Shown here piece by piece: positions 26,483-39,198 of a stretch of DNA of 64,000 nt. Location: contig NZ_CP118632.1 of the NCBI RefSeq assembly GCF_028993615.1, positions 2,790,001-2,854,000 of the forward strand. The letters are read 5' to 3'. The notes beneath the pieces were generated by a model. It did no database searches and was not told the origin of the DNA. It worked only from the letters and a program-made list of their open reading frames with translations. Origin of the DNA: Herbaspirillum sp. WKF16. GTDB lineage: Bacteria; Pseudomonadota; Gammaproteobacteria; Burkholderiales; Burkholderiaceae_D. Both the position numbers and the translations under genes were made by a program. How positions within the stretch are numbered: the first letter of the stretch is position 1; each line of letters begins with the position of its first letter.

Positions 26483-27661
26483 CTATGGCTTGCGTCCCCA
26501 ATACGACTTGTCGTTGAGCATGCCCTTGGGCGTGATGTCCTGGTCGAAGATCGAAGTCGGCAAGGCCACCGTGCAGGCGCAGTTCGGGATATCGACGATG
26601 CCGCCGATGCGCCCTTCCACGGGCGCCGCCGTCAGCAGCATGTAGGCCTGGCTGCCGGTGTAGCCGAAGTGCGTGAGGTAATCGATCGCCTTGAGGCAGG
26701 CCTGGCGATAGGCCACGGTGGCGTCGAGGTAATAGTTGGTGCCGTTCTCGACGCTGATGCCTTCGAAGGTCAGCCACTGCTCGTAGTGCGGCTTGACGAT
26801 GCTGGGCATGAAGATCGGCGAGGTGATGTTGTACTTCGCCATGCCGCCCTTGATCAGGTCGAAGCCGACGTGGCTCACGCCGTCCATCTCGATGGCGCCG
26901 CAGAAGCCGATCTCGCCGTCGCCCTGCGAGAAGTGCAGGTCGCCCATCGAGAAGCCCGCGCCCTTCACGTACACCGGGAAGAAGATGCGGGTGCCGGCCG
27001 AGAGATCCTTGATGTCGGTATTGCCGCCATGCTCGCGCGGCGGCACGGTGCGCGCGGCGATCTTGGCCATCTCGTCGAACTTGGCGCCGGTCAGGCCGCG
27101 CAGCACCGCGGTGGATGGATCGGGCGGCTTGGCCAGGCCCTTGGCGGCCAGCGGCGCCTCGCGGCGGTTCCATTCGGCCAGCAGGTCGTGCGACGGCAGG
27201 CAGCCCATCAGGCCCGGGTGCGTGAGGCCGGCGATGCGCACGCCGGGAATGTGGCGCGAGGTGGCGTAGAGGCCCTTGAGGTCCCAGATCGCCTTATCCG
27301 CATCCGGGAAGTAATCGGCCAGGAAACCGCCGCCGTTCTCCTTGGCGAACACGCCCGAGAAGCCCACCGGCGTCACCGGCTTGATGTCCAGCAGGTCGAT
27401 CACCAACAGGTCGCCCGGCTCGGCGCCTTCGACGTGGAACGGCCCGGTCAGCGGATGGGCGCGCGTGAGGTCGACGTTCTTGACGTCGGAGACGTCGTCG
27501 GTGTCCTTGATCTGGGCGTCCAGGAAATCCAGCGATTCGATCAATATCGATTCGCCCGGCTTGACCGAGGACAGGAACGGCAGGTCCGGGTGCCAACGGT
27601 TGTGGCCGAGTTCAGGCTGCTCCGCCAGCGGAACGCCGGGCTTGATCTTGAAGTGTTGCAT
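26483..27661 (-). CDS. fmdA: formamidase (acetamidase/formamidase family)
   Basis: 392 residues. Hydrolyses formamide (and perhaps acetamide) to ammonia and the acid in the cytoplasm. Family blocks: LGHNRWHPDLPFLSSVKPGE, LLVIDLLDIKPV, HPGLMGCLPSHDLLAEWN, GDLHFSQGDGEIGFCGAIEM. The CPYC-type zinc protein fmdB follows and an aliphatic amidase precedes, so ammonia release from short amides is the operon's purpose. Confidence 0.93.
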   Translation of the reverse strand: MQHFKIKPGVPLAEQPELGHNRWHPDLPFLSSVKPGESILIESLDFLDAQIKDTDDVSDVKNVDLTRAHPLTGPFHVEGAEPGDLLVIDLLDIKPVTPVGFSGVFAKENGGGFLADYFPDADKAIWDLKGLYATSRHIPGVRIAGLTHPGLMGCLPSHDLLAEWNRREAPLAAKGLAKPPDPSTAVLRGLTGAKFDEMAKIAARTVPPREHGGNTDIKDLSAGTRIFFPVYVKGAGFSMGDLHFSQGDGEIGFCGAIEMDGVSHVGFDLIKGGMAKYNITSPIFMPSIVKPHYEQWLTFEGISVENGTNYYLDATVAYRQACLKAIDYLTHFGYTGSQAYMLLTAAPVEGRIGGIVDIPNCACTVALPTSIFDQDITPKGMLNDKSYWGRKP

Positions 27662-27903: not shown

Positions 27904-28935
27904 TCAATCGGCCGGCCCGGCCGGGATGCCCGGCACCGGGCACTCCGGCGTGCCGGCGGTCTTGCGCGTGATGGCCTCGGCCGCGGCGCGCGCGGCCTGC
28001 GGGTCGTTGACCCAGGTCTTGTAGAAATCGAAGGGGCAATCGGCCACGCCGGCGGGCGCCTCGCCGGAATTGATCTTGCCGGTGTAGCCGCGGTGCAGCA
28101 GCTTGAACAGGTGGTTCTGCGACTGCCAGTTGCGGCGGGCGTCGCGGATGGCGGAAACCGACAGCTCGGCGTACTGGATGCCCATCTCCTCGGTGCCGCA
28201 TTCGCCCAGCGTGCGGCCGTCGAAACCGACGATGGCAGAGTGGCCGAAGTACGAATACACGCCGTCGAAACCGGCCGCGTTGGCCACGGCCACATACACG
28301 TTGTTCATCCAGGCCATGGCTTTGGCCACCAGCACCTGCTGCTCCTTGGCCGGGTACATGTAGCCCTGGCAGCGCACCACCAGCTCGGCGCCCTTCATGG
28401 CGCAGTCGCGCCAGATTTCGGGATAGTTGCCGTCGTCGCAGATGATCAGGCTGATCTTCAGGCCCTTGGGGCCGTCGCAGACATAGGTCGCGTCGCCGGG
28501 ATACCAGCCTTCGATGGGCGTCCACGGCATGATCTTGCGGTACTTCTGCACGATCTCGCCCTGGTCGTTGATCAGGATCAGCGTGTTGTACGGCGCCTTG
28601 CGCGGATGCTCCTCGTGGCGCTCGCCGGTCAGCGAGAACACGCCCCATACGCCGGCGATGCGGCAAGCCTCGGAGAAGATGCGCGTCTCGTCTCCCGGCA
28701 CGGCGGCGGCGGTCTCGTACATTTCCTTCTCGTCGTACATGATGCCGTGCGTCGAATACTCGGGGAACACCACCAGGTCCAGCCCCGGCAGGCCCTGCTT
28801 CATCCCCACCAGCATGGCGGCGATCTTGCGGGCGTTGTCCAGCACTTCGCCGCGGGTATGCAGGCGCGGCATCTTGTAATTGACCACCGCCACGCCGACT
28901 GCGTCCTTGCTACTCGATATGTCTCCATGCCTCAT
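27904..28935 (-). CDS. amiE: aliphatic amidase
   Basis: 343 residues, nitrilase superfamily, hydrolysing short aliphatic amides. The catalytic triad is intact: Glu-59 in [10 protein letters not shown] (the same number as in Pseudomonas AmiE), Lys in QKYRKIMPW and Cys in [11 protein letters not shown]. Family segment [20 protein letters not shown] is present. Lies 38 bases downstream of urtE and 242 bases upstream of fmdA, in the same direction. Which amide is preferred is not shown. Confidence 0.95.
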
Positions 28936-28973: not shown

Positions 28974-29663
28974 TTACACGGACAGGTACTTGCTGATGGT
29001 GGGCGCGTCGACGTTGTCGCGCGTGTCTTCATAGACGAAGCGGCCCTTGTCGATCACCAGGAAACGATCGGCGATCTCCAGCGTGAAGCTCAGCACCTGC
29101 TCCGAGACGATGATGGTGAGCTGGCGGATCTTGCGGATCTCCTTCAGGCTGCGCGCGATGTCCTTGATGATGGACGGCTGGATGCCCTCGGTCGGCTCGT
29201 CCAGCAGCAGCACCCGCGGGTTGGTCGCCAGCGCGCGGGCGATCGCCAGCTGCTGCTGCTGCCCGCCCGACAGGTTGCCGCCCTTGCGGGTGCGCATGTC
29301 GTAGAGCACGGGGAACAGCGCGTACAGCTCGTCGGGCACCTTGCCGCGGGCGGCCGGGCCGAGTCCGGTCTGGATGTTTTCCAGCACCGTCATGCCGGGG
29401 AAGATCATGCGTCCCTGCGGCACATAGGCCACGCCGCGCGAGACGCGCTGGTGGCTCTCCATGCCGCCCAGCTCGACGCCATCGATGGCGATGCTGCCGT
29501 CGCGCAGCGGCAGGATCCCCATCAGGGTCTTGAACAGCGTGGTCTTGCCCATGCCGTTGCGGCCCATGACGGCGACGATTTCCTCCCTGGCGACCGACAG
29601 GTTGATGTCGTGGATGACCGCGCTCTGGCCGTAGCCGGAGGCGAGGTTTGAGACTTTGAACAT
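28974..29663 (-). CDS. urtE: urea/short-chain amide ABC transporter ATP-binding protein UrtE
   Basis: 229 residues from the ATG at 29663 (GGAG six bases before); a longer TTG-started form would overlap urtD. Walker [15 protein letters not shown], signature [15 protein letters not shown], Walker [16 protein letters not shown], typical of UrtE/LivF proteins. Partner of UrtD in energising branched-chain-type uptake of urea or amides. Confidence 0.9.
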
Positions 29664-29691
29664 GGCGGGCTCCGCGAATGATGGATGGTGG

Positions 29692-30459
29692 TCAGTGGCC
29701 AAGGTAGACGTCGATCACGCGCGGGTCCGACTGCACCGTCTCCATGTTGCCTTCGGCCAGGATCTTGCCCTGGTGCAGCACGGTCACCTTGTGCGCGATG
29801 CTCTTGACGAAATCCATGTCGTGCTCGATCACCACCACCGAGCGGCCCTGGCTGATGCGGCCCAGCAGCTGCGCCGTCTTCTCGCGCTCGGACACGCTCA
29901 TGCCGGCCACCGGCTCGTCCAGCATCAGCAGCTCAGGCTCCTGCATGAGCAGCATGCCGATCTCCAGCCACTGCTTCTGGCCGTGCGAAAGCAGGTCGGC
30001 CTGGGTGTGCAGGTGCGCGTCGAGGAAGATCTCGGCGGCCACCGACTCGACCCGCGCCACCACGTCGGGCGAGCGCTTGAAGGTCAGCGCGCCGAACACC
30101 TTGCGCCCGCGCGGGAAGGACATCTCCAGGTTCTCGAACACGGAGAGGTTCTCGTAAATCGACGGCGTCTGGAACTTGCGGCCGACGCCGGCGCGCACGA
30201 TGGCGTGCTCGCTCATCCTGGTCAGCTCGTGGTCGTTGAAGCGGATGCTGCCCGAGGTGGCGCGCGTCTTGCCGCAGATCAGGTCCAGCACCGTGGTCTT
30301 GCCGGCGCCGTTGGGGCCGATCACCACCCGCACCTCGTTGCGGTGCACGTACAGGTTGAGCTTGTCGACCGCCTTGAAGCCGTCGAAGGAAACGGTCAGG
30401 TCTTCGATCGCCAGTACCGGGTGGGCATCCGATTGGAATCCGATGGGTGCGTCGCTCAT
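29692..30459 (-). CDS. urtD: urea/short-chain amide ABC transporter ATP-binding protein UrtD
   Basis: 255 residues. Walker A IGPNGAGKTTVLDLICG, the UrtD-type signature LSHGQKQWLEIGMLLMQ (SHGQ instead of SGGQ, characteristic of this subfamily), and Walker B LLMLDEPVAGMS. Starts inside the urtC stop (4-base overlap). Confidence 0.93.
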   Translation of the reverse strand: MSDAPIGFQSDAHPVLAIEDLTVSFDGFKAVDKLNLYVHRNEVRVVIGPNGAGKTTVLDLICGKTRATSGSIRFNDHELTRMSEHAIVRAGVGRKFQTPSIYENLSVFENLEMSFPRGRKVFGALTFKRSPDVVARVESVAAEIFLDAHLHTQADLLSHGQKQWLEIGMLLMQEPELLMLDEPVAGMSVSEREKTAQLLGRISQGRSVVVIEHDMDFVKSIAHKVTVLHQGKILAEGNMETVQSDPRVIDVYLGH

Positions 30460-31652
30460 TTGCTGGCCTCCAGGGTGGCGCCGGGCTCGATGCCGTCGCG
30501 GGTGGTGTCGGCGGGCGCCGCTTTGGCCGGCGCCTTGGGCTTGGTGCTGTCGGGGCCGGCGGGCTGGCGGCGCAGGCGCGCCAGCAGTCGCTTGCCCTGG
30601 CTCTGGTACAGGCCGGCCAGGCCGTTGGGGAAGTACATCACCACCGCGATGAACAGGCCGCCCATCAGGAACAGCCACAGTTCGGGGAAGGTCTCGGAGA
30701 AGTAGGTCTTGCCGAAGTTCACCAGCAGCGTGCCGTACACCGCTCCCAGGAGCGACATGCGCCCGCCGACCGCGGCGTAGATCACCATCTCGATGGACGG
30801 CACGATGCCCACGAAGGACGGCGACATGAAGCCCACCTGCAGCGTGAACATGGCGCCGCCGATGGCCGAGAACATGGCCGCGGCGCAGAACACGAAGACC
30901 TTGAAGCTGGCCACGTCGTAGCCCGAGAAGCGCACCCGCTCTTCCTTGTCGCGCATCGCCACCAGCAGGCGCCCGAGCTTGGAGGAGAGGATGTAGCGGC
31001 CCAGCAGGATGCAGGCGAACAGCAGACCGGCGTTGACGAAGTACAGGATCAGCTTGGCGCTGTCGGTGCGGATGTCCCAGCCCAGCATCGTCTTCAGGTC
31101 GGTGATGCCGTTGACGCCGCCGGTCAGGCCCTGCTGGCCGATGATCAGGATCGCCAGGATGGCGGCGATGGCCTGGGTCACGATGGAGAAATACACGTCC
31201 CCCACGCGCCGCTTGAACATCGCGATGCCGATCAGGAAAGCCAGCAGCGTGGGCACCGCCAGCACCGCCAGCACGGTGAAGCCCAGGCTGTGGAAGGGTT
31301 GCCACATGGCCGGCAAGGCGGTGATCTGGTTCCAGTCCATGAAGTCGGGAATGCCCGGGGTCGACTGGATCTTGGTGCTGATCGGGTCGGACGCTTCCAG
31401 CTTCAGGAACATCGCCATGCAGTAGCCGCCCAGGCCGAAGAACACGCCCTGCCCCAGGCTCAGGATGCCGCCGTAGCCCCAGCACAGCACCAGGCCCACC
31501 GCCACGAAGGCGTAGGACAGGTACTTGCCCACCAGGTTGAGGCGGAACATGTCCATCGTCAGCGGGAACACCACCAGCAGCAGCGCCGCCATCACCAGCA
31601 GCCCCGTCAGCCCGGACCTGCCGCCCAATATCTTTTCGTATGCCGCATTCAT
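30456..31652 (-). CDS. urtC: urea/short-chain amide ABC transporter permease UrtC
   Basis: 398 residues with about ten hydrophobic helices. YAFVAVGLVLCWGYGGILSL and GQGVFFGLGGYCMAMFLKLE are the LivM/UrtC hallmark. The C-terminal ~45 residues are a polar Pro/Ala/Lys tail. Overlaps urtD by 4 bases and follows urtB by 40 bases. Confidence 0.92.
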   Translation of the reverse strand: MNAAYEKILGGRSGLTGLLVMAALLLVVFPLTMDMFRLNLVGKYLSYAFVAVGLVLCWGYGGILSLGQGVFFGLGGYCMAMFLKLEASDPISTKIQSTPGIPDFMDWNQITALPAMWQPFHSLGFTVLAVLAVPTLLAFLIGIAMFKRRVGDVYFSIVTQAIAAILAILIIGQQGLTGGVNGITDLKTMLGWDIRTDSAKLILYFVNAGLLFACILLGRYILSSKLGRLLVAMRDKEERVRFSGYDVASFKVFVFCAAAMFSAIGGAMFTLQVGFMSPSFVGIVPSIEMVIYAAVGGRMSLLGAVYGTLLVNFGKTYFSETFPELWLFLMGGLFIAVVMYFPNGLAGLYQSQGKRLLARLRRQPAGPDSTKPKAPAKAAPADTTRDGIEPGATLEASK

Positions 31653-31692: not shown

Positions 31693-32610
31693 TCACTTGC
31701 GCACCTTGGACGAGAACAGTCCCTGCGGGCGCAGCATCAGGATCAGGATCACCGCCGACAGGGTCAGCACCTTGGCCATCGATCCGGTCAGGAAGAACTC
31801 GGCGGTGGATTGCGTCTGGGCGATCGAGAAGGCCGAGGCGATAGTGCCGATCAGGCTCTGGGCGCCGCCGAAGACCACCACCAGGAAGGTGTCGACGATG
31901 TACAGCGATCCGCTGGTGGGGCCGGTCGAACCGATGGTGGTGAACGCCGCGCCGGCCACGCCCGCCACGCCGCAACCCAGCGCGAAGGTGGTGCGGTCGA
32001 CCTTGCGGGTGTTGATGCCCACGGCGCCGCTCATGACCCGGTTCTGCATCGTGGCCCGCACCTGCAAGCCCCAGCGCGAGCGGAACAGCAGCACGAAGAT
32101 GGCGCCGGTGAGCAGCACCGTCAGTCCCATCATGAACAGGCCGTTGATCGGGATGTCGATGTCCTCGGTCGGCTTGAACGAGCCCAGCAGCCAGTCCGGC
32201 AGCGTCGCGCTCACCTCCTTGGCGCCGAAGATGGAACGGAAGGTCTGCTGCATCGCCAGCGACAGTCCCCAGGTCGCCAGGAGCGTATCCAGCGGGCGCT
32301 TGTAGAGGCGGCTGATCAGGAGCAGCTCGGTCAGGTAGCCCACGCCGTAGGCCACGATGAAGGACAGCACGACCGCGCCGAAGAAATAGAACGGCTGCAG
32401 GCTGGGCGCGTAGGTGGTGGTCAGGTGCGACAGCAGGTAGGTGATGTAGGCGCCGATGGTGAGGAACTCGCCATGCGCCATGTTGATCACGCCCATCTGG
32501 CCGAAGATGATGGCCAGGCCCAATGCCATGAGCAGCAGCACGCAGAACACCGAGAGGCCGTTGAAGCCCTGCATGGCGAAGATGGCGCCGAATTCGGATA
32601 GAGAAACCAT
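31693..32610 (-). CDS. urtB: urea/short-chain amide ABC transporter permease UrtB
   Basis: 305 residues from the ATG at 32610 (SD GGGAG). LMALGLAIIFGQMGVINMAH and GEFLTIGAYITYLL are the LivH/UrtB hallmark; IGSTGPTSGSLYIVDTFLVV lies near the C-terminus. Pairs with UrtC in the membrane channel. Confidence 0.92.
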   Translation of the reverse strand: MVSLSEFGAIFAMQGFNGLSVFCVLLLMALGLAIIFGQMGVINMAHGEFLTIGAYITYLLSHLTTTYAPSLQPFYFFGAVVLSFIVAYGVGYLTELLLISRLYKRPLDTLLATWGLSLAMQQTFRSIFGAKEVSATLPDWLLGSFKPTEDIDIPINGLFMMGLTVLLTGAIFVLLFRSRWGLQVRATMQNRVMSGAVGINTRKVDRTTFALGCGVAGVAGAAFTTIGSTGPTSGSLYIVDTFLVVVFGGAQSLIGTIASAFSIAQTQSTAEFFLTGSMAKVLTLSAVILILMLRPQGLFSSKVRK

Positions 32611-32717: not shown

Positions 32718-33974
32718 TTACTGGTAGCCCTTGGGGAAGGGATTGGGTTCGATCAGGTCGGACTCGTAGATGACCTTGAACTGGCCGTCCTTCTGCGCCT
32801 GGCCGATGCGCGTCTTGCTCCACAGGTGATGGTTCTCGTGCACCTTGACGTAGCCTTCCGGCGCGGTCTTCAACTCGATGCCTGGCGAGGCCGCGACCAC
32901 CTTGTCGACGTCGAAGCTGCCGGCCTTCTCGACCGCCGCCTTCCACAGCCAGGGGCCGAGGTAAGCGGCCTGGGTGACGTCGCCGATGACCGAGTTGGCG
33001 CCAAACTTGGCCTTGAACTCGGCCACGAATTTCTTGTTGTTGGCGTTGTCCAGGCTCTGGAAATACTTCATCGAGGCGAAGAAGCCTTCCACGTTCTCGC
33101 CGCCGATGCCCAGCATCTCATCCTCGGTCACCGAGATGGTCAGCAGGTTCTGGGTCTTGGCGGTGACGCCGGCGGCCTTCAACTGCTTGTAGAAGGCCAC
33201 GTTGCTACCGCCGACCACGTCGGCGAAGATGACGTCGGGCTTCTTCAGCTTGATCTTGTTGATCAGCGAGCCGAACTGGGTATTGCCCAGCGGGTAGTAC
33301 TCCTCGCCCACCACCGAACCCTTGAGCACGTTCTCGATGTGCTTGCGGGCGATCTTGTTGGAGGTGCGCGGCCAGATGTAGTCCGAACCGACCAGGAAGA
33401 AGGTCTTGGCCTTCTTTTCCTTGGCCACCCAGTTCAGGCCCGCCAGCACCTGCTGCGTCGCCTCCTGCCCCGTGTAGAACACGTTCTTCGATTGTTCCAG
33501 GCCTTCGTAGAAGGTCGGGTAGTAGAGCAGGCCGTTGTCCTTCTCGAACACCGGCAGCACCGCCTTGCGCGAGGCCGAGGTCCAGCAGCCGAAGACCGCC
33601 GCGACGCGGTCGTTCTCCAGCAGCTTCTTGGCCTTCTCGGCGAAGGTGGGCCAGTCGCTGGCGCCGTCTTCCTGGATGATCTTGATCTTGCGGCCGAGGA
33701 TGCCGCCCATGGAATTGATCTGGTCGATGGCCAGGCGCTCGGCCTGGATCGAACCGGTCTCGCTGATGGCCATGGTGCCGGTGGCCGAGTGCAGCTGGCC
33801 GACGGTGACTTCGGTGTCGGTGATGGCCAGCTTGGTGGTGTTGACCTTGGCGGTCGGGAACTGCTGCGCCGAAGCGATCCCCGGCAGCGCCGCGGCAGCC
33901 GCACCGGCGGCCAGCCCCATCAGGATCTTGCGCCGTTGGGACGAGGGTGGTCTGGAAGAGGAACGGTGCGACAT
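32718..33974 (-). CDS. urtA: urea/short-chain amide substrate-binding protein (UrtA/FmdD type)
   Basis: 418 residues from the ATG at 33974. The N-terminus has a Tat-type signal, SQRRKILMGLAAGAAAAALP, ending GIASA. The mature part reads VTVGQLHSATGTMAISE, GCWTSASRKAVLPVFEKDNG and LLYYPTFYEG, as in UrtA and in FmdD of the Methylophilus amide transporter. With amidase and formamidase in the same operon, the ligand may be a short amide rather than urea; urease genes are not in this window. Confidence 0.92.
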   Translation of the reverse strand: MSHRSSSRPPSSQRRKILMGLAAGAAAAALPGIASAQQFPTAKVNTTKLAITDTEVTVGQLHSATGTMAISETGSIQAERLAIDQINSMGGILGRKIKIIQEDGASDWPTFAEKAKKLLENDRVAAVFGCWTSASRKAVLPVFEKDNGLLYYPTFYEGLEQSKNVFYTGQEATQQVLAGLNWVAKEKKAKTFFLVGSDYIWPRTSNKIARKHIENVLKGSVVGEEYYPLGNTQFGSLINKIKLKKPDVIFADVVGGSNVAFYKQLKAAGVTAKTQNLLTISVTEDEMLGIGGENVEGFFASMKYFQSLDNANNKKFVAEFKAKFGANSVIGDVTQAAYLGPWLWKAAVEKAGSFDVDKVVAASPGIELKTAPEGYVKVHENHHLWSKTRIGQAQKDGQFKVIYESDLIEPNPFPKGYQ

Positions 33975-34143
33975 GCGGTACTCCTTTCGGGCATTGTTGG
34001 ACGTCATTGGACGCGATCGTGGCGTGATGGACCGAACAAGAGCGGTCGGAACGGACATGCGAGCTTTTTCTTCTGCCGCTGACGGGCCTTGCTTCGCCGT
34101 TCGTTCTGGGACGAAGAATAGGATTGGCGATGCGGCGCAACAA

Positions 34144-34159
34144 TACGTTGTTTGACGTA
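34144..34159. promoter_or_regulatory. candidate operator A for the LuxR-type regulator
   Basis: TACGTTGTTTGACGTA: arms TACGT and ACGTA around a 6-base centre. It differs at two positions from the second site 174 bases away. It lies 170 bases upstream of the urtA start. Dyads with TACGT arms are the kind of site used by LuxR-type regulators; binding is inferred. Confidence 0.55.
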
Positions 34160-34317: not shown

Positions 34318-34333
34318 TACGTCATTTGACGTA
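34318..34333. promoter_or_regulatory. candidate operator B for the LuxR-type regulator
   Basis: TACGTCATTTGACGTA: a near-perfect palindrome (TACGTCA/TGACGTA with a TT centre). It lies 147 bases upstream of the chosen kinase start. Same arms as site A, so both divergent units could be controlled together. Confidence 0.6.
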
Positions 34334-34479
34334 TGCCATCGGCCGCCGATTGGTTTGAAAATTGCTTTCAGAAGAGGCTGAGCGGCCGGCCCCGGGCGCC
34401 ATGCCGTGGCGCGCCATCCGGCCGGCCGCGCAAGCCGCGCCGGGCGGCCGCGCGCCGTCCACCAGAACACGAGCTAAAT

Positions 34480-37400
34480 GTGAGCAATCCCGCCATACAA
34501 CGGATCGTCAAGGTCCGGCGCGACTACAACACCTGGGTCGCCAACGAGACGCTGGAAGACTACGCGCTGCGCTACACGCCGCGCTCGTTCCGGCGCTGGT
34601 CGGAATTCCGCCTGGCCAACACGGCCCTGGGCGCGACCTCGTTCCTGGCGCTGGAGGCCATCAGCGGCGCCATCACCCTGAGCTACGGTTTCACCAATAC
34701 CTTCTGGGCGATCGCCTGCGTGGTGCTGCTGTTCTTCCTGACCGGATTGCCGATCAGCTACTACGCCGCCCGCTACGGCGTCGACATGGACCTGTTGACG
34801 CGCGGCGCCGGCTTCGGCTACATCGGCTCGACCGTGACCTCGCTGATCTACGCCAGCTTCACCTTCATCTTCTTCGCGCTGGAAGCGGCGATCATGGCGC
34901 AGGCCATCGAGATGTATTTCAAGCTGCCGCTGGTCTACGGCTACGTGCTGTGCTCCCTGATCATCATCCCCATGGTGGCCTACGGCATCACCTTGATCAA
35001 CCGCCTGCAGATGTGGACCCAGCCGCTGTGGATCGTCTTGCTGGCCCTGCCCTTCATCTGCGTGCTGTACAAGGAGCCGGAGGCGCTCTCCAACCTGATC
35101 ACCTTCGCCGGCCGCGCCGAGGACGGCAGCTCGTTCAACCTGCTGCTGTTCGGCGCCGCCGCCACGGTGGCCTTCTCGCTGATCGCGCAGATCGGCGAGC
35201 AGGTCGACTTCCTGCGCTTCCTGCCCGAGAAGACCGCCGCCAACCGCGTGCGCTGGTGGAGCGCCCTGCTGCTGGCCGGGCCCGGCTGGATCCTGCTGGG
35301 CGGCGCCAAGATGCTGGGCGGCGCCCTGCTGGCCTTCCTGGCGATCCAGCACGAGATCCCGATGGACAAGGCGGTGGAGCCGACGCGCATGTACCTGGTC
35401 GGCTACCAGTACGTGTTCGGCAATCCGGCGCTGGCGCTGGGCGCGGTGGTGCTGTTCGTGGTGGTGTCGCAGATCAAGATCAACGTCACCAACGCCTACG
35501 CCGGCTCGCTGGCCTGGTCCAACTTCTTTGCGCGGCTCACGCACAGCCACCCGGGCCGCGTGGTGTGGCTGGTGTTCAATGTGCTCATCGCCGTGCTGCT
35601 CATGGAGCTGGGCGTGTTCAATGCGCTCGAGCACGTGCTGGCGCTGTACAGCCTGGTGGCGATCTCATGGATAGGCGCGGTGGTCTCGGACCTGGTGATC
35701 AACAAGCCGCTCAAGCTCTCGCCGGCCCACATCGAGTTCAAGCGCGCCCACCTGTACGATGTCAATCCGGTGGGCGTCGGTTCGATGGCGATCGCCTCGG
35801 CGCTGTCGGCGGTGGCCATGTCGGGCGTGCTGGGCAGGACGGCGGCGGCGATGGCGCCCTTCATCGCGCTGGGCACCGCGCTGCTGTGCGCGCCGCTGAT
35901 CGCGCTGGCCACCGGCAGCCGCTACTACATTGCGCGGCGCGACACGCTCTCCGACCATGAGCACGCGCAGGGCCAGCTCGACTGCGTGATCTGCGGCAAC
36001 CGCTTCGAGACGCCCGACATGGCGCACTGCCCGGCCTACCAGGGCGCGATCTGCTCGCTGTGCTGCTCGCTCGACGCGCGCTGCAACGACCGCTGCAAGA
36101 CGCCGGCGGCGCGCCTGCCCAACCAGATCTTCCTCACGCTGCGCAGCCTGATGCCGGCGCGCTTCTCGCTCAAGCTCAACACCCGCATCGGCCATTACCT
36201 GATCGTCTTCGGCGTGCTGGCCGGCGGCCTGGCGATCATGCTGTGGATGCTGTATTTCCAGCAGATGGCGGATCTCTCCGGCGTGGCGCCGGGCTCGCCC
36301 GACTCGATCCGGGCGGTTTTCATCAAGCTGTTCTGCATGCTGCTGGTGGTGCTGGGCGTGGGCGCCTGGTGGCTGGTGCTGACCAACGAGAGCCGCACCG
36401 TGGCGCAGGAAGAATCGGAGCGCCAGACCAACCTGCTGCTGCAGGAAATCGAGGCGCACAAGCAGACCGACGCCGAACTGCAGCGCGCCAAGGAAGCCGC
36501 CGAATCGGCCAACCTGGCCAAGAGCCGCTTCGTGGCCGGCATGAGCCACGAGCTGCGCACCCCGCTCAACAGCATCCTCGGCTACGCCCAGATCCTGCAC
36601 GTGGACGCCACCATCCCGCCGGCGCGCAAGGACGCCATCGCCATCATCCGGCGCAGCGGCGAGCACCTTCTGAGCCTGATCGACGGCCTGCTCGACATCG
36701 CCAAGATCGAGGCCGGCAAGATGCGCCTGGCCTCCGATGAAGTCGCGCTGCCGGCCCTGCTGGAGCAGATCGCCGGCATGTTCGCGCCGCAGGCCGAGCA
36801 GAAGGGGCTGGCATTTCGCTTCGAGCAGGTCGGCCGCCTGCCGGCGATCGTCCACGCCGACCAGAAGCGCCTGCGCCAGATCCTGATCAACCTGCTGGGC
36901 AACGCGGTCAAGTTCACCGACTGCGGCAGCGTCACCCTGCAGGTGCGCTACGCGCGCGAGATCGCCTATTTCGATATTGTCGACACCGGCATCGGCATCG
37001 CCGGCGACGACCTGGAGCGCATCTTCCTGCCCTTCGAGCGCAGCAGCGCGGCCAACCTGCGCGGCGACATCGGCACCGGCCTGGGCCTGGCCATCAGCCG
37101 CATGCTGACCCACATCATGGGCGGCGAGCTGGCGGTGGACAGCGAAGTCGGCCGCGGCAGCAGCTTCCACCTCAAGCTCTATTTGCCGGAGGTGCACGTG
37201 CCGCGCCCCAGCCTGAAACTGGAAGACCAGATGCCGGGCTACCTCGGCCCCTCCAAGCGGGTGCTGGTGGTGGACGACCAGGCCTCGCAGCGGCAGATCC
37301 TCAAGGAGATGCTGCTGCCGCTGGGATTCGAGGTGCGCGAGGCGGCCGGCGGCATCGCCTGCATGGAGGCGCTGGGACGCGAGGTGCCGGACCTGGTGCT

Positions 37401-37902
37401 GCTCGACATCGCCATGCCGCAGATGGACGGCTGGTCGGTGGCGCGCGCCATCCGCGCGCGCGGCCTGACGCGCCTGCCGGTGATCTTCGTCTCGGCCGAC
37501 GCCTTCGAGAACGCGCATGAGCGCGCCGATCCGCCGCTGTACAACGACTTCGTGGTCAAGCCGGTCTCCTACAACGAGCTGCTGGCCAAGATCAAGCAGC
37601 AGCTGCGCATCGAGTGGCTGCCGGCGGCGGCCCTGCCCGCAGCCTCTGCCGCCGCTTCCGGCCCCGCCGCGCAGCCGCTGATGCTGGTGCCGGCGCAGAA
37701 GAAGCTGCGCGCGCTGCTGGAGCTGGGCAGCATCGGCTACGCCAAGGAAATCCTCAGGCAGCTGGACGACATGGAGCGCCAGAATCCGGCCTACCTGCCC
37801 TTCACCACCGAGCTCAGGCAGCTGGTCAAGCAGTTCCGCCTCAACGAATATGTCACCCGCATCAAGGAGATGATCCGCCATGATCTCAACGACGTTCGAT
37901 AG
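34480..37902 (+). CDS. NCS1-like permease fused to Cys-rich module and hybrid histidine kinase
   Basis: 1140 residues from the GTG at 34480, chosen because VRRDYNTWVANETLEDYALR, the conserved start of this family, follows at once. Residues ~20-490: permease of the cytosine/purine (NCS1) type with about twelve helices. Residues 502-539: eight Cys (Cx2C-x11-C-x7-C-x2-CC-x5-C-x3-C), a likely zinc or Fe-S site. Two more helices follow (~568-640), then a coiled linker. HisKA has MSHELRTPLNSI with His-690, then NLLGNAVKF, DTGIGI and GTGLGLAISRML. The receiver has Asp-976 in LVLLDIAMPQMDGW, then a ~100-residue C-terminal part. Overlaps the LuxR-type regulator by 23 bases. It probably senses an amide, urea or related compound; the ligand is inference. 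Confidence 0.88.
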   Translation: MSNPAIQRIVKVRRDYNTWVANETLEDYALRYTPRSFRRWSEFRLANTALGATSFLALEAISGAITLSYGFTNTFWAIACVVLLFFLTGLPISYYAARYGVDMDLLTRGAGFGYIGSTVTSLIYASFTFIFFALEAAIMAQAIEMYFKLPLVYGYVLCSLIIIPMVAYGITLINRLQMWTQPLWIVLLALPFICVLYKEPEALSNLITFAGRAEDGSSFNLLLFGAAATVAFSLIAQIGEQVDFLRFLPEKTAANRVRWWSALLLAGPGWILLGGAKMLGGALLAFLAIQHEIPMDKAVEPTRMYLVGYQYVFGNPALALGAVVLFVVVSQIKINVTNAYAGSLAWSNFFARLTHSHPGRVVWLVFNVLIAVLLMELGVFNALEHVLALYSLVAISWIGAVVSDLVINKPLKLSPAHIEFKRAHLYDVNPVGVGSMAIASALSAVAMSGVLGRTAAAMAPFIALGTALLCAPLIALATGSRYYIARRDTLSDHEHAQGQLDCVICGNRFETPDMAHCPAYQGAICSLCCSLDARCNDRCKTPAARLPNQIFLTLRSLMPARFSLKLNTRIGHYLIVFGVLAGGLAIMLWMLYFQQMADLSGVAPGSPDSIRAVFIKLFCMLLVVLGVGAWWLVLTNESRTVAQEESERQTNLLLQEIEAHKQTDAELQRAKEAAESANLAKSRFVAGMSHELRTPLNSILGYAQILHVDATIPPARKDAIAIIRRSGEHLLSLIDGLLDIAKIEAGKMRLASDEVALPALLEQIAGMFAPQAEQKGLAFRFEQVGRLPAIVHADQKRLRQILINLLGNAVKFTDCGSVTLQVRYAREIAYFDIVDTGIGIAGDDLERIFLPFERSSAANLRGDIGTGLGLAISRMLTHIMGGELAVDSEVGRGSSFHLKLYLPEVHVPRPSLKLEDQMPGYLGPSKRVLVVDDQASQRQILKEMLLPLGFEVREAAGGIACMEALGREVPDLVLLDIAMPQMDGWSVARAIRARGLTRLPVIFVSADAFENAHERADPPLYNDFVVKPVSYNELLAKIKQQLRIEWLPAAALPAASAAASGPAAQPLMLVPAQKKLRALLELGSIGYAKEILRQLDDMERQNPAYLPFTTELRQLVKQFRLNEYVTRIKEMIRHDLNDVR

Positions 37903-38878
37903 GCATGTCGTCCTCATCGTCGACGACATGCCTGACAACCTGTCCATGCTCTCGGACTCGCTCGACGACAGCGGCCACATCGTGCTGGTCGCCACCGACG
38001 GCATGAGCGCGCTGGAGCGCCTGGACTGCGTCACGCCCGACCTGATCCTGCTGGACGCGATGATGCCCGGGATCGACGGCTTCGAGACCTGCCGCCGCAT
38101 CAAGCTGATCAAGAGCGTGAGCCATGTGCCGGTGGTGTTCATGACCGGCCTGTCCGAGACCGAACACGTGGTGCGCGGCTTCGAGGTCGGCGGCATCGAC
38201 TACGTGACCAAGCCGATCCGCCCGCAGGAAGTGATGGCGCGCATCGGCTCGCACATCCGCACCGCGCGCATGATGTCGCAGACGCGCGGCGTGCTGGAGC
38301 AGGCCGCGCACGCCGTCATCGTGCTCGGCGGCAACGGCTTGCCGCTGTGGCAAACCAGCAAGGCCTCGCTGTGGCTGGAACGCTATTTCCCGGCAAGCGC
38401 CGGCGCGCCCTCCGGCCACAAGCTGCCGCCCCGGCTGCAGTCCTGGCTCAACGACAGCCTGGCGCGCCAGCGCCAGGGCGGCCTGGGCGGCGTCGCCGAG
38501 ATCGCCCCGCTGGTGGTCAGGGATGAGCAAGGCGAACTCAGCATCGCCATCTCCCCGGGCGGGCAAGGCCACGGCATCACATTGTTGCTGGAAGAAAAAC
38601 GCATCGCCGCCGGCGCGCCGCCGATGGCCCCCGCGACGGAGGACGCCGCCGCCGCGCCGGGCGAAAACTTCCGCCTGACGCCGCGCGAGAACGACGTGCT
38701 GATGTGGCTGGGCAAGGGCAAGACCAACCGCGACATCGCCGACATCCTCGGCATGAGCCCGCGCACCGTGAACAAGCACCTGGAGCACATCTTCGTGAAG
38801 CTCGGCGTGGAAACGCGCTCGGCCGCCGCCGTCATGGCCAGCGCCATGGCCCAGCCGGCCGGCGGCCTGCTGCAATAG
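37880..38878 (+). CDS. LuxR-family response regulator
   Basis: 332 residues. Receiver domain at residues 1-125 with Asp pair VDDMPDN and phosphoacceptor Asp-59 in LILLDAMMPGIDGFE. A ~130-residue middle part of unknown fold follows. The LuxR/GerE HTH is at ~265-325: LTPRENDVLMWLGKGKTNRD then IADILGMSPRTVNKHLEHIF. Starts inside the kinase gene, so it is almost surely its partner. Expected to bind the paired palindromes in the divergent spacer and control the amide operon. Confidence 0.92.
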   Translation: MISTTFDRHVVLIVDDMPDNLSMLSDSLDDSGHIVLVATDGMSALERLDCVTPDLILLDAMMPGIDGFETCRRIKLIKSVSHVPVVFMTGLSETEHVVRGFEVGGIDYVTKPIRPQEVMARIGSHIRTARMMSQTRGVLEQAAHAVIVLGGNGLPLWQTSKASLWLERYFPASAGAPSGHKLPPRLQSWLNDSLARQRQGGLGGVAEIAPLVVRDEQGELSIAISPGGQGHGITLLLEEKRIAAGAPPMAPATEDAAAAPGENFRLTPRENDVLMWLGKGKTNRDIADILGMSPRTVNKHLEHIFVKLGVETRSAAAVMASAMAQPAGGLLQ

Positions 38879-38997: not shown

Positions 38998-39198
38998 ATG
39001 CCAAAGAAAGAAGAGAAGCTGGATCCGGAAACCGAAGCCCTGATCCAGTGGTGCACCGAAGTCGAACAGTTCCTGGTCAAGGGCGGCGCCACGCTGGACC
39101 AGGCCCAGGAACACATCGAGGAAGAAGTGGAATGGTTTACCGACATGTTCTACGACGGTCTTACCCCTGAAGAGGCGGCCAAGGAAGCATTGGCCTGA
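38998..39198 (+). CDS. small acidic protein
   Basis: 66 residues: MPKKEEKLDPETEALIQWCT..., strongly acidic and predicted helical, with ...GLTPEEAAKEALA at the end. Good SD (AAGGA) before the ATG at 38998. Followed by a terminator. No function recognised. Probably its own unit, 119 bases after the regulator gene. Confidence 0.7.
   Translation: MPKKEEKLDPETEALIQWCTEVEQFLVKGGATLDQAQEHIEEEVEWFTDMFYDGLTPEEAAKEALA

Follow-up and report, generated by a model that had tools for sequence, protein, structure and literature searches.

What does a sensor kinase perceive when its input domain resembles a transporter, and which genes does it control? The question is raised by a locus in a 64,000-nucleotide stretch of Herbaspirillum sp. 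WKF16 (NZ_CP118632.1, positions 2,790,001 to 2,854,000; hereafter the window, whose own numbering is used below), in which a gene for a permease-kinase fusion and one for a LuxR-type regulator lie divergently from urtABCDE, amiE and fmdA. The original prediction, made from the letters of the window, saw the fusion as the switch for amide or urea use. We consider it likely that the protein is a transporter-derived receptor kinase (a transceptor) for small amides and urea, which switches on their uptake genes. Gene order and a common palindromic operator predicted from the sequence show the kinase and its regulator to be tied to genes for amide and urea uptake and hydrolysis.

The kinase gene lies in an open frame spanning 34333-37902, and its 1140 residues are counted from a GTG at 34480. 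Its parts are as follows:

34480..37902, + strand: NCS1-permease/Cys8/sensor histidine kinase/receiver hybrid, 1140 aa, putative GTG start
34540..35919, + strand: NCS1-fold permease domain, residues about 21-480 (AlphaFold2 and profile comparison)
35983..36096, + strand: Cys8 module C-x2-C-x11-C-x7-C-x2-C-C-x5-C-x3-C, residues 502-539 (alignment and pattern)
36184..36417, + strand: two long helices preceding the kinase, residues 569-646 (AlphaFold2)
36517..36717, + strand: HisKA, residues 680-746 (Pfam)
36859..37185, + strand: HATPase_c, residues 794-902 (Pfam)
37261..37596, + strand: receiver (Response_reg), residues 928-1039 (Pfam)

HisKA (68.1 bits), HATPase_c (85.8) and the receiver (76.8) all exceed their Pfam cut-offs and mark a hybrid sensor histidine kinase. 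The original prediction had proposed a Pfam search of the permease and Cys regions; Pfam recognised the kinase half and found no match N-terminal of HisKA at E 0.01, none in the 647-residue N-terminal part even at E 1, none in the C-terminal stretch of about 100 residues beyond the receiver, and no PAS domain anywhere in the protein. AlphaFold2 modelling of residues 1-647 (pLDDT 79.3, pTM 0.80) predicts a helical fold of the permease kind up to about residue 480, then a small β/α Cys region and long helices at 569-598 and 610-646. Pfam, AlphaFold2 and alignment together thus bear out the single protein originally described, with permease, eight cysteines, two helices, HisKA/HATPase and receiver in that order. 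A protein 95% identical to it is present in Herbaspirillum sp. LeCh32-8, while the 96 other kinase matches in its own genome each begin at residue 612 or later and are therefore kin for the kinase half only. Departures from this architecture include a cyanobacterial relative of 1287 aa that has an extra PAS domain as well as a receiver (L082:9989-13849), and two short forms without a LuxR regulator and with fmdA a few kb off (L111 and L119, open frames of 894 and 899 aa), of which that of L119 has no receiver and is followed by a separate REC-kinase gene.

The permease profile matched a three-sequence NCS1 profile, built from CodB, L125 and a frame of L147 (a 604-aa open frame taken as it stands), at 99.2% and E 1.3e-19 in profile-profile comparison, and the predicted structure of the domain has the NCS1 fold. 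These two lines agree with the likeness first proposed and support an NCS1-type assignment from sequence profiles and the model; a sequence search of the PDB with the permease profile returned nothing at E 1.

The cysteines of the following module (502, 505, 517, 525, 528, 529, 535 and 539) are conserved without exception across an alignment of 41 sequences. A pattern scan of the loci, which left two gaps free and is blind to modules breaking the remaining gaps, recovered 162 modules, 129 of them distinct and all of a single length, and a pattern-free alignment retained all eight cysteines in 150 of the 150 matches reaching the module. Modelled alone, the module forms a helix and β-hairpins (residues 11-50 at pLDDT 77-86). 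Zinc domains of the RING, FYVE, PHD and LIM types make up most of its best PDB fold matches, all of them weak; the module could plausibly be a zinc treble clef. Pfam gave no match above threshold for the module. CRIPT was the most frequent of the sub-threshold Pfam matches (13 of 97 members, E 0.0024 at best) and came up again at E 0.058 in a PDB search with the Cys profile, where it was not counted as a relationship. Nor were the C2H2-type zinc fingers that made up most of what the PDB search reached, via their CxxC, the best of which (E 0.00023) represents a whole chain of repeated fingers in which no single stretch passes. Among 185 genomes of the class, a search with the Cys module gave 13 matches with E under 1e-18, whose frames measure 661-1272 aa and are consistent with the permease-Cys8 family, and two weak ones (4.3e-4 and 0.0098) in short frames with stops.

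The module is also found at the end of permeases that have no kinase: the stand-alone proteins P0143, P0156, P0197 and L026:16833-18494 end soon after the last cysteine. It therefore belongs to the permease and is not merely a linker to the kinase. In the class of the cyanobacterium Elainella (G398), 34 of 291 genomes match at 1e-100 and five of these carry a kinase-free permease-Cys8 protein of about 550 aa (two further matches, G811 and G790, are fragments outside this count). Formamidase follows directly in four of the five (L026, L171, L172 and L173), although the match in L171 covers just 34 residues before its contig ends, and does not directly follow in L170. L125 (8949-13981) encodes in a row an NCS1 permease, a CN-hydrolase, a UrtA/AmiC-like binding protein and an AmiR_N+ANTAR protein, apparently an amide operon with an NCS1 permease. 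Together with the window, three settings therefore tie this permease branch to amide hydrolysis.

To consider what the permease might bind, we took the CodB pocket residues from PMC9379551 (like all papers cited here, drawn on in the part available), which used the Proteus protein, and mapped them on the E. coli sequence with R216->R246 and Y285->Y340 as anchors. Conservation was counted over 151 matches from 149 loci. In CodB the Na2 hydroxyls are supplied by the sodium ligands T278 and T279, which map to K333 and I334; lysine at 333 and Ile or Val at 334 each occur in 151 of 151 matches, and the Na2 side-chain hydroxyls are thus not kept, a test that applies to sodium-coupled NCS1 members only, as the family includes proton-coupled members (PMC13390362). 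With lysine in place of an Na2-site hydroxyl, coupling, if any, is therefore probably not to sodium. In the same alignment Trp108 of TM3 maps to F131 (F in 120 matches, L in 31), Phe204 to L234 (L in 144, M in 7) and Asn280 to N335, and E135 sits four residues past F131, as, we infer, does Gln121 after Trp117 in Mhp1. Invariant in all 151 are E135, Q237, E240, Q241, D243, R246, Q331, K333, N335, N338 and Y340. A smaller, more polar and sodium-free pocket of this kind would suit a small amide or urea.

The replacement of the Na2 hydroxyls by Lys333 and Ile/Val334, with lysine in every one of the 151 matches, could also mean that the domain is a pure receptor in which transport has been lost, as happened when Ks-Amt5 became a sensor (PMC5764959). 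We regard this as rather unlikely, given that the nearest relative without the Cys8 module, L125, is an apparent stand-alone permease with arginine at the K333 position, and that CbrA, also without the Na2 residues, still transports histidine with protons (PMC7918813). Moreover, the stand-alone permease-Cys8 proteins, which are among the 151, keep the same residues, suggesting that transport is possible.

The regulator and the divergent genes of the window are:

37880..38878, + strand: REC-GerE (LuxR/NarL-type) response regulator (Pfam), 23-base overlap with the kinase gene
32718..34007, - strand: urtA (NCBIfam), start uncertain (34058, 34007 or 33974)
31693..32574, - strand: urtB (NCBIfam), profile-matched span, start may be further upstream
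30456..31652, - strand: urtC (NCBIfam)
29692..30498, - strand: urtD (NCBIfam), 5' end approximate
28974..29702, - strand: urtE (NCBIfam)
27904..28935, - strand: amiE, aliphatic amidase (NCBIfam)
26483..27661, - strand: fmdA, formamidase (NCBIfam), sole match to the model in its own genome
26103..26399, - strand: fmdB-like small gene, by-eye likeness to the FmdB-type protein of relatives

Both contextual claims of the original prediction hold: the overlapping regulator has REC (residues 11-122, 93.2 bits) and GerE (266-320, 63.1 bits) domains in Pfam, and the seven divergent genes from urtA to fmdA all exceed curated NCBIfam cut-offs. The urease alpha gene of this genome lies elsewhere, at 4.86 Mb. 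Past the regulator, a 66-aa acidic open reading frame (38998-39198) with no Pfam or NCBIfam match is 94-97% identical in L009, L010 and L015 and also occurs in L013 at a different place.

The fusion had been thought uncommon; it is instead widespread, with at least 8000 relatives of the window kinase in a protein search. In an even draw of Pseudomonadota, the family occurs at 1e-30 in 52 of 398 genomes and 37 of 213 genera, and in a cyanobacterial draw in 10 of 194 genomes. The matched places of the 398-genome draw number 57 loci without the window's own, one being the stand-alone NCS1 relative L125, which leaves 56 copies. Of these, 54 have urt, ure or fmdA within a stretch of about 20 kb (fmdA+urt 16, amiE+fmdA+urt 19, ure+urt 8, ure 4, urt 5, fmdA 2), the exceptions, L093 and L124, both being cut by contig ends; the regulator was recognised in 54 of the 56. 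Homologues lying mostly beside unrelated operons had been named as grounds for abandoning the switch, and in Pseudomonadota they do not. A second sample, the best 80 loci of a longer list from a contig search, includes 62 with neighbours of the urt, ure or fmdA type. Three arrangements recur: urt-amiE-fmdA divergent from the kinase, as in the window; urt-ure-hupE/ureJ-kinase-regulator in line (L049, L083); and kinase-regulator followed by a second urt type (L036, L066).

The intergenic region between urtA and the kinase gene contains the following predicted elements:

34144..34159, no strand: operator 1, TACGTTGTTTGACGTA, abutting the predicted urtA -35 box
34318..34333, no strand: operator 2, TACGTCATTTGACGTA, perfect 7-base arms, upstream of the kinase gene
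34115..34143, - strand: predicted urtA promoter TTGTTG-N17-TATTCT, next to operator 1
34351..34366, + strand: sigma-54-like -24/-12 element TGGTTTGAAAATTGCT, upstream of the kinase gene and below operator 2

In 12 aligned intergenic regions from the window and its nearest relatives it is the two operators that stand out, accompanied by the promoter and the sigma-54-like element at the places given above. With the usual start spacing, the centre of operator 1 would fall near -44 of urtA, as expected for an activator that touches polymerase, and this operator-promoter geometry on the urtA side recurs in 18 of 137 regions, mostly of near relatives. The loose operator TACG-N8-CGTA has 93 sites in 71 of 136 usable upstream regions, which are related to one another and exclude L124, where the match begins at the contig edge, against 0.25 in shuffles that are first-order Markov simulations and not exact dinucleotide shuffles. 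The stricter TACGT-N6-ACGTA occurs at 79 sites across 136 loci. Of these, 69 lie within 700 bases upstream of a kinase, urtA, fmdA or amiE match, and 7 lie farther out, each 1.2-1.5 kb ahead of a urtA match; the other 3 fall within matched spans, two of them close to a urtA start. In the window's own genome it has three sites, two of them at this locus (the reversed control pattern has six), and a narrower pattern, TACGTYRNNYRACGTA, has exactly two, both here; the third site, G000:C1:2491259-2491274, falls outside the narrower pattern. Across the 398 genomes the narrower pattern is found in 21 of 52 with the kinase versus 23 of 346 without it (p 1.2e-9), with a site no more than about 14 kb from a kinase in 18 of the 21, and the reversed control is not enriched with the kinase (8/52 versus 65/346, p 0.70). 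Of the 137 regions, 26 contain the sigma-54-like element, near relatives accounting for about half; the corresponding figures are 2.2 in first-order Markov shuffles and 2 for the opposite strand, a hint that the sensor is under nitrogen control. In genomes of family f48 (L092-L094, L140 and L143-L145), a variant operator, TACGCAAGATCGCGTA or close to it, takes the place of the TACGT arms ahead of the kinase.

Several observations weigh against an amide- and urea-responsive NCS1 transceptor. The NCS1 model PF02133 has no match at E 1 in the 41 permease-Cys parts, including that of the window, such a match being a detection threshold and not a defining feature of NCS1; L125 scores 36.4 bits against the model's cut-off of 23.5. 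The pocket mapping is alignment-based and made without a structure. The narrower operator pattern is carried by 23 kinase-less genomes, and three of the 21 genomes with both kinase and pattern (G043, G360 and G385) have their sites away from the kinase. The reversed control occurs in 73 of the 398 genomes versus 44 for the pattern; as it is the commoner overall, the case for the operator rests on site positions. The loose operator is missing from the 500 bases before the kinase in 49 of 109 regulator-bearing loci, including the uninformative L124 with its match at the contig edge; some of the 49 have an operator at the urt or fmdA promoter or one with a single mismatch, and others have none. 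Among the best 80 loci, 18 have no urt, ure or fmdA-type neighbours (8 cyanobacterial, 3 Beggiatoa-like and 7 others, four of these seven on contigs under 10 kb). In the cyanobacterial draw all nine newly examined copies are without such neighbours and without a LuxR regulator, as is the tenth, L034. The proposed switch thus finds its support in the neighbours and operator link of Pseudomonadota, and the cyanobacterial copies of this draw do not share it.

Loci flagged as regulator-less number 36 of 145, 10 with the operator and 26 without. Of the 10, L128, L131 and L133 have split regulator matches, L129, L055 and L068 have a match, and in L040, L064, L069 and L070 the contig ends before the regulator's expected place; of the 26, two (L052 and L077) turn out to have a regulator match, and a third, L059, stops close to the end of the kinase. 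After this checking 23 loci have neither regulator nor operator, at least 17 of them cyanobacterial. An unusual regulator pairing is seen in one cyanobacterium (L026:9980-13940), where the protein encoded after the family kinase combines a MarR-type DNA-binding domain with a receiver match below threshold; L171:3895-5043 may be similar.

A different ligand could be envisaged, such as a nucleobase, allantoin, a ureide or general nitrogen status, with the amide operon as one output, given that characterised NCS1 members take nitrogenous heterocycles or metformin (PMC13390362, PMC9379551). This is improbable in view of the two narrower operators of the genome both lying at this locus, the recurrence of urease, formamidase and amidase as neighbours, and the mapping of the aromatic pair that holds cytosine in CodB (W108, F204) to F/L131 and L/M234, which fits a smaller ligand. 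It also seems quite improbable that the Cys8 module is the true sensor, of zinc, nickel or redox state, with the permease as its anchor: its eight cysteines are invariant with fixed spacing and urease requires nickel, but the module also ends kinase-free permeases, the pocket positions are just as invariant, and for 37 of the 56 copies of the even draw the stretch of about 20 kb contains fmdA but no urease genes. That the kinase merely travels with the urt genes and controls something else, as the orphan cyanobacterial copies might suggest, is highly improbable with members of all three arrangements carrying the operator.

For the transceptor of small amides and urea that we favor, we propose that an amide or urea would enter the NCS1 pocket and shift the alternating-access equilibrium, that the HisKA helices would receive this shift via the Cys8 tail and the additional helix pair, and that phosphate would then pass to the LuxR-type regulator, which would bind TACGT-N6-ACGTA. 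The bound regulator may recruit RNA polymerase at the urtA promoter, with the second site adjusting the kinase gene, and, to judge from the sigma-54-like element, the sensor may be produced chiefly when nitrogen is limiting. This chain from ligand to urtA is therefore supported by sequence at its ends and inferred in its middle. More tentatively, these proteins might form a large NCS1-type family of dedicated receptor kinases for urea and amides, in which the permease cycle itself, gated by metal or redox state, switches on uptake, with turnover or binding of urea or short amides being read via a two-metal Cys8 tail.

Transporter-kinase transceptors are already known as a kind from CbrA, CrbS, RpuS and Ks-Amt5. 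The SLC5-STAC kinases CbrA, CrbS/MxtR and RpuS also join a LeuT-type-fold transporter domain to a sensor kinase (PMC7918813, PMC13022988, PMC9100948). They differ in having SLC5, STAC (judged by its description) and PAS, where the window protein has NCS1 as its closest fold with Cys8 and two helices, and in their histidine, acetate and pyruvate contexts as opposed to amide and urea. CbrA is by analogy the closest functional parallel; it has lost the Na2 residues, as has the window permease, and is proton-driven (PMC7918813). Ks-Amt5 is likewise a nitrogen-source transporter reused as a kinase input, but it has the Amt fold, its response regulator is still to be identified, and the available part of its description mentions no Cys8 (PMC5764959). 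CodB and Mhp1 differ from the window protein, which has no PF02133 match, Na2 hydroxyls or TM3 tryptophan and is fused to Cys8 and a kinase. AmiC is a soluble sensor of the binding-protein type. The AmiC-AmiR system likewise provides amide-responsive control of an amidase operon (PMC13209695), with AmiR as an RNA-binding antiterminator in contrast to the membrane kinase and DNA-binding regulator described here. In Methylophilus, induction by formamide and urea has been reported (PMC10781810), and the available text names no sensor kinase for the induction of fmdCABDEF of Methylophilus methylotrophus. A hybrid kinase and LuxR regulator are listed beside urtABCDE in Ectopseudomonas, without domain analysis in the part available (PMC13296017, 2026), the fmdA-amiE-linked urt transporter has been suggested to carry amides (PMC3098086), and an ammonia kinase of different architecture is described in PMC12918730. 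In the open-access literature, outside which most subscription journals lie, we found no description of an NCS1-type kinase, the Cys8 tail or this operator.

To our knowledge, few receptors have been named for bacterial sensing of urea and short amides ahead of urt, fmd and urease induction. With the present family, a candidate receptor, its regulator and a precisely defined operator can all be put to the test in a single strain, and, if our reading is true, an NCS1 member joins the transporter-kinase transceptors. The pair of kinase-fused and kinase-free permease-Cys8 proteins allows the question of whether the signal is transport or binding to be addressed, and the operator provides a means to predict amide and urea regulons. 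Thus, the sensing of amide and urea nitrogen sources could become directly testable.

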